In this document: positions 17,114 to 23,358 of the stretch, piece after piece
Layout of the letters: the number at the start of each line of letters is the position of its first letter
How positions within the stretch are numbered: position 1 is the first letter of the stretch
Source: a virus
Strand: one strand, 5' to 3'
Virus record (IMG/VR): IMGVR_UViG_3300037421_000080
Coordinates: 106,086 to 136,935 of that record
DNA: 30,850 bases
Notes under the pieces: generated by a model
What the model was told of the DNA's origin: nothing
The model's input: the letters and a program-made list of their open reading frames with translations, nothing else
Database searches by the model: none
Translations under genes and position numbers: made by a program

Positions 17114-17741
17114 TCCTCACCGGGAAGAAGCAGCGGTCGCTATCGCCCAGCGAGAAGATCTTATCCGGGCGGTTGAGGAGCTCCGCTACAATGAAGGTGC
17201 TCTCCAGGCTGCTGCCTGTGAGATGCTTAACGAACTCTGCCAGCTTCAGAAGGAAAATGAGCACCTTAAGAAATCTCTCTCTGCTGCTCTTTCCCGATCT
17301 CGCTTCTCAGTCCAGGATCCTCCCGAGAAAAAGAGAGGACTAGTGATGAGGTTTGGGAAGCACAAAGGCAAGTTGGTCAAGGACATCCCCGTTGAGTATG
17401 CCCGCTGGCTGCTCAGCGTAAAACGGGACGATATTCTCCGAGATGGTTGCTTTGAGAGGTCCTCCGATATGCACCTTGGACCAGCCCTGATGAAAGTGGT
17501 GCTGGGCAAGGGCATTGCCAGGCTAGATGACGGCATCCGGGAGCTAGTGGTGGAACACAAGAAGAAGTACCGGAGCTTCGACGACCAGAGTTTCCTGGCC
17601 TGGGTTGGATCGAACAAGATGAGGAAGCTCCGGATCCTCTGGCTGGGCATCGCCTTCTACAATAAGCAAAGACATAAAGAAAAAGCGATCAAGAAGCTTG
17701 CCGAGAAGAGTGAATCAGAGCAGCCATGCCAAGTCTCCTAG
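17094..17741 (+). CDS. DUF3820-like protein with N-terminal coiled coil
   Basis: A 215-residue protein. Residues 1-70 are helical and coiled-coil-like (LIRAVEELRYNEGAL, then LCQLQKENEHLKKSLSAAL). At residues about 85-107 lies MRFGKHKGKLVKDIPVEYAR with WLL, the DUF3820 signature (FGKxKG...IPxxYxxWLL), which in relatives is fused to exonucleases or stands alone. The C-terminus is basic and helical. It overlaps the HNH gene at its start and the terminase large gene at its end. Function unknown. Confidence 0.75.
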   Translation: MSNFLIDPHREEAAVAIAQREDLIRAVEELRYNEGALQAAACEMLNELCQLQKENEHLKKSLSAALSRSRFSVQDPPEKKRGLVMRFGKHKGKLVKDIPVEYARWLLSVKRDDILRDGCFERSSDMHLGPALMKVVLGKGIARLDDGIRELVVEHKKKYRSFDDQSFLAWVGSNKMRKLRILWLGIAFYNKQRHKEKAIKKLAEKSESEQPCQVS

Positions 17742-19954
17742 AATTCCCCCCAGAAGCCATCGACCAAGACGAGCTTGCCAAGGATGTCTGCCGGGCATCC
17801 TTCCGGGATTTCGTCAAGATGTTCTGGCATGCCATTCCGGGAGCCGGGAAGCTGATCTGGGGATGGCACATAGACATCTTCTGCCAGGAATTGCAGATAG
17901 TTGCAGAGAGGGTGTTCGCTGGTATTCCCGCCGAGTACGATCTGGTTTGCAACGTTAGCCCAGGTACAAGCAAAAGTTCAGTATTCAGTATTCTGTTCCA
18001 GCCTTGGACATGGACGAGAATGCCTCATGCCCGCCACATCAACGCATCCCACACAGAGTCTCTCGTTCTTGATCTTGCCAATAAATCTCGTGCTGTAATC
18101 AATAGCGATCTGTACCAGACACTATTTCCTGAGATTGAACTCCGTTACGACCAGGACACTAAAGGGTACTTTGCCAATACATTGGGAGGCTGTCGCTACG
18201 CTTGTACAGTCGGGGGGAAGAGTCCTATGGGGATGCATGCCCATTTTTTGAATGGGGACGATCTCCTCGATCCGCAGAAGGTTTTGTCAGAAGTTGAGCG
18301 TCAAACGGCAAAGGAGTTTGTCGAGAATGGGTTACCTACTCGCATGACTGACAAACGGGTCTCGGTTATTTCAATCGTCTCTCAGAGATTGGGCAAGGGA
18401 GACCAGACGGATGTGATGATCGAGGTAGGAAATAGGGAAGGAGCAAGGCATGTCAGGCATCTGTGCATGCCCTGCGACGATTCCTGGCCCATCTATCCGA
18501 CAGACGAGGAGTTTACGATCTATCGGGAAGGCAACCGAATAGAGAAGAAAACTCTTCCCGAGATGTATGAGGAAGGAGAAGGATTGATGGATCCGATCCG
18601 CCTTCCTGCCGATGTGTTGAAGGCGTATCGAGCTAGAGGGGAATACTATTATGCTGGCCAGTTCGGTCAATCTCCACGCCTTCGGGGCGGTGGGATGTTC
18701 AAGGAAGGCTACTTTCTCAATAAAGTTCGGTCAGCTCCTTTCAATTCAGAACGAGTCAGATTTTGGGATAGAGCTGCAACTTCTGATGGGGGCTGCGCAA
18801 CGGCAGGGGTGCTAATCGGGAAGCACGACGATCGGTATTATGTTGAGGATGTAGTATGGGGTCAGTGGGAACCGAATGAACGGAACAATCAAATTGTAGC
18901 GACGGCCCATAGGGATCGTATTCGCTACGGAAGACACGAGCCTACTCATGTTATTGAAGCAGAGCGAGGATCGACTGGTCTAGAATCCTACCAGAGGATT
19001 GCCGGTCGTCTTGCTGGATTCAAAGTGAAGGAAGATATGCCTTCTGGCAGTAAGGATGTAAGAGCAGAGCCCTTTGCAGACCAGTGCGCTGCGGGAAATG
19101 TATTTATTGTGGATAATGGAGAACACGCCGGCCTAGGAAAAGCAACATGGGATGTGAATGCTTATATCCGGGAATTGGTTGATTTTCGCCCGCTTCCGGG
19201 GAAGAGGATTGGTGGCAGGTGCGATAGGGTTGATGCTAGCAGTGGCAGTTTCAACCTCCTCTCCGGCCGCAAGAAGGCAGGCTCCCTCTACATCCTCGGC
19301 ACTGGTGTCAAGAAGGGCATGCTCAAGATCGTGGTGGTCTCCAGGGAAGAGCTGACTGACCTGGTGATAACGGACCATTTCTGCCTGTTGGTTTTATTTG
19401 AGGATCCGCCTTATGAAAAGCAAGAACCGGCATTCGGTGACACATCTGGAAAGAAAACCAAGACAGCCCTCAAAGAAGAGAAAAACGGAGTTGCTGTGGG
19501 GGCCATCGCCAATGGTCAAAATCCACCGGATGCTACGGGAATGGGAGCTGATGGACGAGTTCCTCAGAAGTATGGTCTCTCAAAATTATTAGACACCCTC
19601 ACCCTGACCTTCGCTGACCTGGACCCCAAGGACTTGCAGGACGTGTGGCACGATCCTGTAGAGCCGTGGGGTAAGCTGCCCTCCGAATTGATTATGACCC
19701 TGGACCACGGTAAGAAGCTCTGGGGTTGCCTGACCAAGAAACGAATGCCGCCCGCTGAGATCTGGGTTCTGTGCGACGAGGGCGGGGAGGATGGGAGGGC
19801 ACTAAGTGCAGCGATGGCGATGTGTGAATTGTTAAGATTGCCAAGACAGCAGACGATCCACGTGGTTAGCTCTCCAGAGATGAGCCATGACGGGGAGCCG
19901 GGGAATCAGCACGTGTTCAATCAGGTCAAGGCATCCAGGGGGCTGGTGATGTGA
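17726..19954 (+). CDS. Terminase large subunit with C-terminal phosphatase-like domain
   Basis: Packaging motor and nuclease. Residues 1-515 form a normal large terminase: Walker A VSPGTSKS (77-84, Lys83), Walker B region FLNGDDLLDP (174-183), and RNase H-fold nuclease residues FWDRA (Asp348), IEAERG (Glu411/Glu413) and RCDRVDASSG (Asp500/Asp503). Where relatives end, the frame continues for about 210 more residues (533-742) without a stop. That extension reads like the tyrosine-phosphatase-like fold: KIVVVSREEL, LVLFEDPP, DTLTLTFADLD, then WVLCDEGGEDGRALSAAMAM in place of HCxAGxSRS. The loop is CX7R, not CX5R, so activity is doubtful. Whether fusion or read-through, the domain is always made with this terminase. 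Confidence 0.9.
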   Translation: MPSLLEFPPEAIDQDELAKDVCRASFRDFVKMFWHAIPGAGKLIWGWHIDIFCQELQIVAERVFAGIPAEYDLVCNVSPGTSKSSVFSILFQPWTWTRMPHARHINASHTESLVLDLANKSRAVINSDLYQTLFPEIELRYDQDTKGYFANTLGGCRYACTVGGKSPMGMHAHFLNGDDLLDPQKVLSEVERQTAKEFVENGLPTRMTDKRVSVISIVSQRLGKGDQTDVMIEVGNREGARHVRHLCMPCDDSWPIYPTDEEFTIYREGNRIEKKTLPEMYEEGEGLMDPIRLPADVLKAYRARGEYYYAGQFGQSPRLRGGGMFKEGYFLNKVRSAPFNSERVRFWDRAATSDGGCATAGVLIGKHDDRYYVEDVVWGQWEPNERNNQIVATAHRDRIRYGRHEPTHVIEAERGSTGLESYQRIAGRLAGFKVKEDMPSGSKDVRAEPFADQCAAGNVFIVDNGEHAGLGKATWDVNAYIRELVDFRPLPGKRIGGRCDRVDASSGSFNLLSGRKKAGSLYILGTGVKKGMLKIVVVSREELTDLVITDHFCLLVLFEDPPYEKQEPAFGDTSGKKTKTALKEEKNGVAVGAIANGQNPPDATGMGADGRVPQKYGLSKLLDTLTLTFADLDPKDLQDVWHDPVEPWGKLPSELIMTLDHGKKLWGCLTKKRMPPAEIWVLCDEGGEDGRALSAAMAMCELLRLPRQQTIHVVSSPEMSHDGEPGNQHVFNQVKASRGLVM

Positions 19955-19993: not shown

Positions 19994-20998
19994 ATGAAAA
20001 CGCACTCACTAGATGAGATCGAGAGGCTGCTGGACAAGGCCCTTATGCCCCAAGATCTCTTCGATGTGATCCCCCTCAACGAGCTTCTGTTCTCAACCCA
20101 TCCAGACCGGAACCCCGGTGACAGCAGGGCGGAGATCCTGTTCAAGAGGATTAGTGAGTTCGCCTTGGCCAAAGACAAGCCAGCCCCAACGATCAAGTCC
20201 CCCAAAAAGAGAACCTACTCCCTTGTCAAGATGATCGAGGCTGGAGATGTAGCGGATATCTACCGGGCCACAGCGGGATCGAAAGACTACATTGTGAAGA
20301 TCTCCCGCGTGCCCGATACCCATTCCATGCTGGAGAACGAGAGGAAGGCTCTCACTGCCCTAATAACCGACGCGGGCGACCTGACATACCACAAGTACCT
20401 GCCCGTGCTGGTAGAATCCTTCCCTGTCAAGCAGAGAAACATCCAGCAGCGAGTCAACGTGTTCACCTGGCAGGAGGGCTTCCACACTGCCGCCAAGATT
20501 CACCAGCAGCACGAGGCTCTGGGAGGCAGGCACCTGGCCTGGATCTTCAAGCGCCTGCTGACTGCTTTGGGCTTCGTACACAAGCGAGGCTGGGTTCATG
20601 GAGCGGTTCTACCGGAGCACTGCCTGATCCAGGTGGAGAATCATGGATTGCAGCTAGTTGGCTGGGGGCAGTCTGTTGAAGTGAACCACAGGATCCACCG
20701 GATCTCTAGTCGATACAAGGAATGGTATCCGTCGGAAGTTCTGGAGAAGAAGCTGGTAGGCTCCGAGACGGATATCTACATGGCTGCCAAGCTGATGATC
20801 TATTTGGCAGGAGGGGATCCTGTGAAGGAGATCTTCCCCGACATCACCCCAGAGCCGATCAAGCGATTCATCCGCTCCTGTCTGCTGCCCGGAAGGCTGA
20901 TGCGTCCTGGTGATGCCTGGCTGCTCTTTGAGGAGCTAGATAATTTACTGAAGGCGATCTATGGTCCACCCAGGTTCATCAAGTTGGTGATGGCCTAA
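19994..20998 (+). CDS. J-domain/pseudokinase fusion protein
   Basis: A 334-residue protein with two parts. Residues about 1-60 end in THPDRNPGDSRAEILFKRIS, carrying the HPD motif (36-38) and third helix of a J domain, though the first helices are degenerate. Residues about 75-320 follow the protein kinase fold: IYRATAGSKDYIVKISR with the ATP-lysine-like Lys102, the ERKAL helix, then WVHGAVLPEHCLI where HRDLKPxN is expected, LVGWGQS in place of DFG, and WYPSEVL with DIYMAAKLMIYLAGG (APE and F-helix). The HRD Asp is Ala204, its Lys is Leu206, its Asn is His209 and the DFG Asp is Gly223, so catalysis is very unlikely. AAGGAAAG precedes ATG 19994. It sits directly between the terminase and vWA genes. 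Confidence 0.82.
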   Translation: MKTHSLDEIERLLDKALMPQDLFDVIPLNELLFSTHPDRNPGDSRAEILFKRISEFALAKDKPAPTIKSPKKRTYSLVKMIEAGDVADIYRATAGSKDYIVKISRVPDTHSMLENERKALTALITDAGDLTYHKYLPVLVESFPVKQRNIQQRVNVFTWQEGFHTAAKIHQQHEALGGRHLAWIFKRLLTALGFVHKRGWVHGAVLPEHCLIQVENHGLQLVGWGQSVEVNHRIHRISSRYKEWYPSEVLEKKLVGSETDIYMAAKLMIYLAGGDPVKEIFPDITPEPIKRFIRSCLLPGRLMRPGDAWLLFEELDNLLKAIYGPPRFIKLVMA

Positions 20999-21021
20999 CT
21001 TTTTCCAAGGAGTTTGCACTT

Positions 21022-22026
21022 ATGGGAAGCACACGCTGGTCTGACGACCACTACGACGACCGAGTCAAGCTGAGAGCTGCCACAGGCGTAGCTGCTTTCG
21101 GCTATCATGACGATGTGAAGACGGGGAAGACAGCGAACAAGGTCCACGACAAGCTGGACGCCAAGCGCCTGAGCTCTCTCGGCGCCAAGCTACGGGATTC
21201 GCGGGATAGTGACGCCCACCCAGAGTCCCACGGCGTTGCGATTGTGTTCGACGTGACGGGTTCGATGGGTGAGGTTCCGAGGATTCTCCAGAAGAACCTG
21301 CCCAAGCTGATGGGGCTGCTGATGCGTAAGGGCTATCTGGAGCACCCCTCCATCATGATCTCCGCTGTGGGCGATGCGACCTGCGACCATATCCCGCTCC
21401 AGATCGGCAACTTCGAGGCAGGTATCGAGATCGAGAATGATCTCACCAACATCGTGCTGGAGGGCGGAGGAGGCGGTCACATCACCGAGAGCTATGAGCT
21501 GGCGATGTACTATCTCGCCAAGTACACGGCAATGGACAACTTCGAGAAGCGGAACAAGAAGGGCTATCTCTTCATCATTGGAGATGAGACGCCCTATCCT
21601 GAGGTGGATCGAAGGCAGGTAAAGGACCTGATTGGGGATGACCTCCAGGAAAACATTCCAACAGCGGACATTGTGGAGGAGCTGACTCGAACCTACGATG
21701 TCTACTATGTCCTGCCGCACATGACCAGCAATTACAAGGACCACCGGGTCACGGACTGCTGGAAGAAGTATTTTGGCCAGCGAATCCTGCATCTGGAGGA
21801 TCCGAATACGGTCTGTGAACTGATCGCCTCCGCCGTAGGAGTAGCCGAGGGCAAGGTGGATGTGGATGGAGTAGCCAAGGACTTGATCGACTTCGGTGTT
21901 TCCAAGTCCACTGCCTCTGCCGTTGGCAAGGCTCTGGTCCCTGTATCCGCTGGAGCATTGAAGGTGAAGGGAGCTGAAGTGGATGTTCCCTCCTCCGGAG
22001 CTGGGTCGGGTGTTGCGACGCTGTAG
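21022..22026 (+). CDS. von Willebrand factor A domain protein
   Basis: A 334-residue protein. The vWA domain spans about residues 70-270: VAIVFDVTGSMGEVP holds the MIDAS metal motif DxTGS (Asp77, Thr79, Ser81), followed by SAVGDATCDH, GGGGHITESYELAM (about 148-161) and LFIIGDETPYPEV. vWA domains bind partner proteins through the metal site. The tail is Ala/Gly/Val-rich and ends SSGAGSGVATL, probably flexible. AAGGAG is 11 bases upstream. Next to a pseudokinase it recalls kinase-vWA pairs of the TerY type, but that link is inference. Confidence 0.88.
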   Translation: MGSTRWSDDHYDDRVKLRAATGVAAFGYHDDVKTGKTANKVHDKLDAKRLSSLGAKLRDSRDSDAHPESHGVAIVFDVTGSMGEVPRILQKNLPKLMGLLMRKGYLEHPSIMISAVGDATCDHIPLQIGNFEAGIEIENDLTNIVLEGGGGGHITESYELAMYYLAKYTAMDNFEKRNKKGYLFIIGDETPYPEVDRRQVKDLIGDDLQENIPTADIVEELTRTYDVYYVLPHMTSNYKDHRVTDCWKKYFGQRILHLEDPNTVCELIASAVGVAEGKVDVDGVAKDLIDFGVSKSTASAVGKALVPVSAGALKVKGAEVDVPSSGAGSGVATL

Positions 22027-22038
22027 GTTGGTAGGGGC

Positions 22039-22075
22039 GGGGTCCTGGCTGGAGTTTGGAGTTGGCCAGGATCCC
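22039..22075 (+). other. Stable RNA hairpin between vWA and purA-like genes
   Basis: GGGG-TCCTGGC (22039-22049) pairs with GCCAGGA-TCCC (22065-22075), an 11-pair stem with one G-U and a 15-base loop. No T-tract follows, so it is not a standard terminator; it may stop RNA decay or limit translation of the next gene, which has no SD. Confidence 0.6.
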
Positions 22076-22104
22076 GCTCTCTCCATCAACAATGGGATTC
22101 AACA

Positions 22105-23358
22105 ATGAAGCAGGCAATTATCACGGTAGGGATGGGGTTTGGCGACGAGGGCAAGGGAGCCACAGTGGACTACCTCTGTCGGGAGTTCAATGCAGACCTT
22201 GTAGTCCGCTACTCCGGAGGCCCTCAGTGCGGCCATAATGTAGAGCTGCCCGACGGCCGGCGGCACACCTTCTCGCAGTTCGGTTCTGGAACCCTCGTAG
22301 GTGTTCCTACCTACTGCACCAAGGAAGTGATTATTGATCCTCTGGCTCTTCGGAGAGAATCCGATTCTCTGCATGAAGTCTTTGAGATCAGGGATCCTAT
22401 GGTCTACTGGTCCGCCCACCCGAAGTGCCTGGTGAGCACCGTCTTTCATCAAGAGGTTAATCGGATCAGGGAGAGAGCGAGATGTGAGAACAAGCACGGG
22501 AGCTGTGGGCGGGGAGTAGGCGAGACCAGATCCTACAGGCTGAAACACGGCAACGATGCTCCTGTGGTGGGCGATCTGAAGAATAATTTGGTAGTTCTGG
22601 AAGACAAACTTCAACTCCTCCGTGAGCGGAGCTTGCAGGACGTGCAGGAGCTAGACCTATCGGATGCCAGCGGGAAATTGTTTGATCTTTCTGTGAAGGA
22701 AGAGGCCAGGAGGCTCTATTCGATTGGTTATTTGAACAATGACCTACCTCATTGCAAGACTGCGATCTTCGAGGGGGCGCAGGGCATCCTCCTGGACGAG
22801 TGGCGAGGCTTCCATCCCTACACCACCTGGAGTACGGTGACTCCAGAGGCAGCTTTGGATCTAGCGGCGGAGTATGGGGCAGAAGTTCTGGTGCTGGGTG
22901 TTACAAGGGCTTACATGACTCGGCATGGGGCTGGCCCATTCCCTACGGAGTGGAAGATTTCTACTTTGGAGGATAAGGGAAACCCTTATAATGAGTGGCA
23001 AGGCGACCTAAGATGTGGCTGGCTAGACTTCGCCCTGTTGGAGTACGCTCTCTCCGTCTGCAAGATTGACGGGTGGGCGGTCAATTGCCTGGATGATTTG
23101 AGGGATGTGGTCCCTTATGTCAACATGAGATATGGTGGCTACCAGCTAAAGGCACCTGCCTTGCCGTCCCTGAAAGCACAGGAGCATATGACCAGGGAAC
23201 TGAAGCATGTAAAGACTGAGCTGTTTCCTACGACTGTATCCAACATCCTTGGGCAGCTGGAGGGAATGGCCCCTGTGCTGGTGAAGTCCAATGGACCGAC
23301 TCACAAGCACCGGACAATGAGCAAGCTTCCTCCATTCAGGAGGGTGAAAAGTGCTTGA
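22105..23358 (+). CDS. Adenylosuccinate-synthetase-family enzyme (PurA/PurZ-like)
   Basis: PurA joins IMP and aspartate using GTP. Phage relatives (PurZ) use dGMP to make the precursor of 2-aminoadenine (Z) DNA. The 417-residue protein has GFGDEGKG (11-18, Asp14 kept), RYSGGPQCGHN with catalytic-type His44, FEGAQGILLD (222-231), AYMTRHGAGPFPTE (269-282) and GWLD (305-308). The canonical aspartate loop (ATTGRRRR before GWLD in E. coli PurA) is replaced by NEWQGDLR, and the base-pocket strand TWSTVTPEAA differs. Those changes favour a PurZ-type substrate, but the kept Asp14 recalls the PurZ0 class or PurA. None of the usual partners (DatZ, MazZ, DpoZ) is visible here. No SD precedes ATG 22105; TCAACAATG occurs twice (22086 and 22099). 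Confidence 0.88.
   Translation: MKQAIITVGMGFGDEGKGATVDYLCREFNADLVVRYSGGPQCGHNVELPDGRRHTFSQFGSGTLVGVPTYCTKEVIIDPLALRRESDSLHEVFEIRDPMVYWSAHPKCLVSTVFHQEVNRIRERARCENKHGSCGRGVGETRSYRLKHGNDAPVVGDLKNNLVVLEDKLQLLRERSLQDVQELDLSDASGKLFDLSVKEEARRLYSIGYLNNDLPHCKTAIFEGAQGILLDEWRGFHPYTTWSTVTPEAALDLAAEYGAEVLVLGVTRAYMTRHGAGPFPTEWKISTLEDKGNPYNEWQGDLRCGWLDFALLEYALSVCKIDGWAVNCLDDLRDVVPYVNMRYGGYQLKAPALPSLKAQEHMTRELKHVKTELFPTTVSNILGQLEGMAPVLVKSNGPTHKHRTMSKLPPFRRVKSA

Follow-up and report, generated by a model that had tools for sequence, protein, structure and literature searches.

The window, i.e. the whole 30.8 kb stretch of DNA analysed here which forms the end of a 136,935-base virus record, contains a stop-free open reading frame of 742 codons (17726-19954, + strand) that encodes a terminase large subunit (TerL) and continues past the terminase for its final 211 codons (19319-19954). 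We tentatively interpret this frame as an in-frame fusion of TerL to a catalytically dead PTP/DSP-like domain, which may act as a protein-binding appendage. The features of the frame and of its downstream neighbour are listed in Table 1.

Table 1. Features of the fused reading frame and its downstream neighbour (positions in the window)
Feature	Position	Strand	Basis or remark
Terminase large subunit, residues 1-531	17726..19318	+	phrog_38, PF17289, alignment of motifs and C-terminus
C-terminal PTP/DSP-like tail, residues 532-742	19319..19951	+	own Met, in-frame fusion; stop codon 19952-19954
N-terminal block of the tail, MLKIVVVSREELTDL...VLFEDPP	19319..19411	+	aligns with family start MKIxVxSRxEAxxx...ISIxDP; hmmsearch domain 1
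Lys/Gly-rich insert, 60 residues	19412..19591	+	missing in family members; predicted to be largely disordered
ORF of 59 aa overlapping in another frame	19413..19592	+	ATG with GAGGA 8 nt upstream; spans exactly the insert
DTLTLTFADLD block	19592..19624	+	D631 (19616-19618) corresponds to the invariant Asp of family FxD; hmmsearch domain 2
Degenerate P-loop, C683-DEGGEDGRA	19772..19801	+	alignment columns 220-228; pairwise with L175
N727-QHVF	19904..19918	+	N727 corresponds to the invariant Asn of the family PNRxVY motif (alignment column 273)
Gene for J-domain-like N-terminus and Ser/Thr-kinase-like domain	19994..20998	+	phrog_3043 2.2e-28, Pkinase 3e-7, DnaJ 0.017

The terminase part and its C-terminal boundary

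The phrog_38 profile matched residues 18-518 (E 1.9e-49) and the PF17289 nuclease-domain profile residues 347-506 (E 6.9e-6). The Walker A (VCNVSPGTSKS) and Walker B (FLNGDD) motifs of the ATPase were both found to align with those of 13 relatives, and according to the same alignment the three acids of the RNase H-like nuclease domain are D348, the Glu of HVIEAERG and D503. Judged by these motifs, residues 1-531 constitute an intact and apparently functional TerL, which is the single terminase of this type found in the whole virus record. Short insertions that the relatives do not have are located at 19106-19228 near the end of the nuclease domain (around NGEHAGLGKA and RPLPGKRIGGRC).

The TerL profiles end at residues 506-531. 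Of the approximately 84 TerL relatives, which derive from cultured phages and IMG/VR, most terminate 4-20 aa from the same point, shortly past the nuclease domain, and for a few the distance is as much as about 75 aa where the alignment is weaker. The C-termini of the two closest relatives (L016, ending in LAVTKGR, and L011, ending in YGRRKGT) align with the GTGVKKG that ends at residue 531 and directly precedes MLKIVVV in the frame studied here. Since these natural ends fall on residue 531 and residue 532 is a Met whose codon starts at 19319, the boundary between TerL and tail is sharp and lies at this position. The initial annotation had described a frame running about 210 codons past the terminase, and both this length and the start of the tail at 19319 were confirmed; the normal TerL end, which it had placed at RVDASSGSFN, is shifted by the alignment to about residue 531.

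The tail was absent from all of the approximately 84 to 85 TerL relatives examined, and the search for other terminases with the tail that the initial annotation had suggested, carried out on phage and viral sequences, likewise revealed none. It had also been reasoned there that shorter terminases in related phages, with the tail as a separate gene, would contradict the fusion. The terminases of the relatives do end at the equivalent of about residue 531 without the tail, but a separate gene for the tail was not found in the phage and viral searches.

Coding potential of the tail and probable reality of the fusion

The frame of the tail stayed open in only one of 4000 dinucleotide shuffles of 19319-19951. 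Codon usage likewise points to the TerL frame for the greater part of the tail, with scores of mostly 0.0 to 0.32 up to about position 19800 (the reference for coding being 0.18 +/- 0.11) that drop to about -0.09 to 0.01 between 19800 and 19950. The internal ATG at 19319 is preceded by a weak and badly spaced ribosome site whereas several neighbouring genes have strong ones, and a tail that is started separately is therefore less likely.

The fusion is known from one assembled record, a single metagenomic contig, and no second copy of the tail-bearing sequence was found in the viral-contig searches. Both this and the position of the join, which coincides exactly with the boundary expected for the genes and leaves the downstream Met in place, would be consistent with a sequencing or assembly error in which two genes are adjacent in the virus and the intervening stop codon was lost from the consensus. 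However, the poor ribosome site at the internal ATG speaks against a second gene starting there, and as both parts share one frame such an error would have required a substitution or an in-frame indel. We regard an error of this kind as unlikely and the fusion as very probably real in the virus.

Probable relationship of the tail to PTP/DSP-like proteins

The tail had no match in Pfam, PHROG, NCBIfam or among PDB sequences even at E 10, which includes the curated phosphatase models (DSPc and others), and no relatives were detected in phages, plasmids or viral contigs by querying either with the tail or with the whole protein. PF00782 is absent from the whole virus record. The comparison was based on a DSP-like family for which a consensus written by hand served as bait; its members were gathered from bacterial genomes, phages and IMG/VR contigs and gave a profile of 79 stand-alone proteins, all of them real database sequences.

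The tail scores 8.4 bits against this profile, a value reached by none of 5000 shuffles (best 5.8) and by one of 732 real ORFs; a repeated control with local shuffles and 1435 ORFs agreed with the first. Block-permuted tails reached the same score in 40 of 2000 cases, indicating that part of it stems from the local blocks and not from their order. PTP proteins of other subfamilies with intact loops obtained only 10.9-22.8 bits with the same profile, so that a low score is to be expected for a tail lacking the loop. The match consists of two collinear blocks: MLKIVVVSREEL in the first part of the tail, which aligns with the natural N-terminus of small phage and bacterial PTP/DSP-like proteins at the family start, and further downstream LDTLTLTFADLD...WVLCDEG. 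Furthermore, the mean pairwise Smith-Waterman score of the tail against the family is 33.5 compared to 27.8 +/- 1.0 for shuffles (5.7 s.d. above). Its best pairwise partner is L175, the alignment showing LWVNCEAGISRSGAV against IWVLCDEGGEDGRAL. Twelve of the 29 strongly conserved family columns are kept, including SR and the LxLxFxD pattern as well as the Cys, the Gly and the late Asn, and the losses are concentrated in the P-loop.

The relationship to the small DSP-like proteins is thus weak and above the controls, and the profile comparison proposed in the initial annotation had a divided outcome: the 79-member profile separated the tail from nearly all shuffled and real-ORF controls, but neither the curated families nor hhalign against four phage family members (E 0.28) gave a significant match. 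The latter two results would also suit an unrelated new domain resembling PTP proteins by chance, an explanation which we consider improbable with respect to the profile score, the pairwise excess and the correct placement of the N-terminus and the invariant Asp, Cys, Gly and Asn. The tail is probably homologous to PTP/DSP proteins, with moderate support.

Predicted structure of the tail

The mean AF2 pLDDT of the tail was 38.3 for the single sequence vs 74.8 with the family alignment, the latter prediction being partly circular as its alignment came from DSP-like proteins. In the family-guided model the N-terminal block (model residues 1-30) reached pLDDT values of about 84-92. A Foldseek search of this model against BFVD returned phage tyrosine-phosphatase-like proteins on top (E 1.9e-4 and 2.9e-4, ranging to 2.2e-3), whereas its PTP matches in the PDB were not significant (E >= 0.2). 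The single-sequence model was poor and no PTP fold was found for it. The structural comparison suggested in the initial annotation therefore yielded a resemblance to phage PTP-like proteins for the partly circular family-guided model only. Taken together with the 8.4 bits and 5.7 s.d. obtained on the sequence level, this model supports the phosphatase-like order of blocks that had been claimed for the tail, but not the accompanying reading of its loop.

The Lys/Gly-rich insert received pLDDT values below 50 across most of model residues 39-76. The codon scores of the ORF overlapping it are near the coding range at 19450-19540. The idea of a small gene inserted into the tail was rejected, given that no relatives were found for the ORF and that 167 of 2000 codon shuffles (8%) produced an ORF of this length; it possibly exists by chance.

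Degeneration of the P-loop

The loop of the tail retains the Cys and the Gly of CEAGISRS, and where the family has its invariant Ile, Ser, Arg and Ser the tail has Gly, Glu, Asp and Gly, respectively. The gap-free alignment of CDEGGEDGRA with CEAGISRSA positions Asp689 at the Arg of every family member, so the CX5R active-site loop is represented by CX5D with C683 kept. The initial annotation had instead read the motif as a CX7R loop that may bind a phosphorylated ligand or a DNA terminus without cleaving it. An Arg (R691) is indeed present two residues past the usual place. However, in the ungapped alignment the position of the Arg is occupied by Asp, and the acidic loop would be expected to repel phosphate. 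Because of the exchanged Arg and the acidic loop both catalysis and the binding of phosphate or DNA ends by the tail seem unlikely, and we consider the CX7R reading as a whole very improbable. If the tail is homologous to PTP/DSP proteins it very probably lacks catalysis, as predicted from the loss of the P-loop Arg and Ser.

Neighbouring genes

The fused frame is followed by the J-domain/kinase-like gene, a VWA-like gene of phrog_2971 containing a DxTGS motif, and a PurA-like gene (19994-23358). A homologue of the J-domain/kinase-like protein reaches 8.6e-7 with DnaJ. The kinase-like, VWA-like and PurA-like genes also form a group in cluster C phages of Mycobacterium and on dozens of IMG/VR contigs. 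This three-gene cassette is conserved in diverse viral sequences (L005, L087, L178-L257), and the kinase gene can also follow the PurA-like gene. In the cassette-bearing contigs neither this type of TerL nor DSP-like genes are part of the cassette, and a search for DSP-like genes associated with either TerL or the kinase cassette found no such link. In three of the cassette-bearing records that were searched whole a PTP-type protein is encoded away from the cassette. The gene preceding the homologous kinase gene in Mycobacterium, considered as a stand-alone version of the tail, turned out to encode a zinc-finger-like protein. No paper joining kinase-, VWA- and PurA-like cassette terms was found in the open-access literature searched.

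The best match of the adenylosuccinate synthetase-like protein (22105-23358) is the PurZ PHROG. Phage PurZ proteins have Ser in place of the catalytic Asp (PMC12884076), yet the Asp is kept here (GDEGKG). By this criterion the protein is of the PurA type, and a role as Z-DNA enzyme was dismissed.

Intein-like inserts were observed in two other proteins. One, missing in the copy of the window, is part of the VWA-like protein from Mycobacterium phage ChickenPhender (L005 6104-7882). Another (CFVAGTLVNT...HNFFAEGVLVSNC) is part of the TerL encoded at L220 13817-15937, and the contig in question carries VWA-like and PurA-like genes as well.

Proposed origin and role of the fusion

The fusion may have arisen by loss of the TerL stop codon, through which TerL became continuous with a gene lying downstream in the same frame and encoding a small PTP/DSP-like protein (residues 532-742). 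The natural end of TerL and the Met expected to start the small protein meet exactly at the join. The appended domain retains residues of the scaffold (SR, LxLxFxD, C, G, N, V) and, having lost the P-loop Arg and Ser, should be catalytically dead. The likeliest role of such a tail would be that of a non-catalytic protein-binding appendage on the packaging motor. Presupposing homology, the absence of catalysis and a real fusion, we consider the chances that a binding role was selected to be about even.

A tolerated passenger is almost as likely as the binding appendage. In this scenario, which taken on its own we rate as a lesser possibility, a DSP-like gene that was already decaying became fused when the TerL stop codon was lost, and its product is tolerated or proteolysed and idle. 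The destroyed P-loop, the largely disordered 60-aa insert, the weak codon signal past about 19800 and the absence of the tail from all TerL relatives examined are in line with such a passenger. Against a passenger speak the 211 codons that remain open as in only one of 4000 shuffles and the coding-like codon usage over most of the tail; moreover, the frame encodes the sole TerL of the record, and an added domain should therefore be costly to fitness.

Returning to the binding appendage, a more specific version would be a pseudophosphatase module on the motor that binds the J-domain Ser/Thr-kinase-like neighbour or a phosphorylated assembly factor and thereby couples packaging to phospho-signalling; this version appears rather improbable. 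A real and selected fusion would open a first way into packaging that is phospho-regulated or assisted by a scaffold, and if the tail is a passenger the frame would represent a snapshot of how such fusions arise.

Comparison with known systems

Few phage proteins are as conserved as terminases, and the open-access literature searched contained no description of a terminase in fusion with a phosphatase fold. TerL proteins of the phrog_38 type (Rhizobium phage RHph_Y5A; L016 and L011 from IMG/VR) share the architecture and motifs of ATPase and RNase H nuclease with the terminase part described here, being about 31-41% identical, but terminate no later than the equivalent of residue 531 or at most a few tens of residues from the nuclease domain, and the tail of 211 residues occurs in none of them.

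Small PTP/DSP-like proteins (Sinorhizobium phage Phosso XYS97419.1, Pseudomonas phage Phabio, and L175 and L258 from IMG/VR) have in common with the tail the MKIxVxSR block, the LxLxFxD block, the Cys loop followed by a helix and the late PNRxVY. In contrast to the tail, which is fused to TerL and has LCDEGGEDGR and the 60-aa insert, they are stand-alone proteins with HCEAGISRS. Pseudophosphatases such as STYX and the D2 domains of receptor PTPs have a disabled catalytic loop on a PTP scaffold and act as signalling or binding modules (PMC8269279, PMC7320164). These proteins are eukaryotic, and their presumed likeness to the tail consists in the PTP scaffold with a disabled loop.
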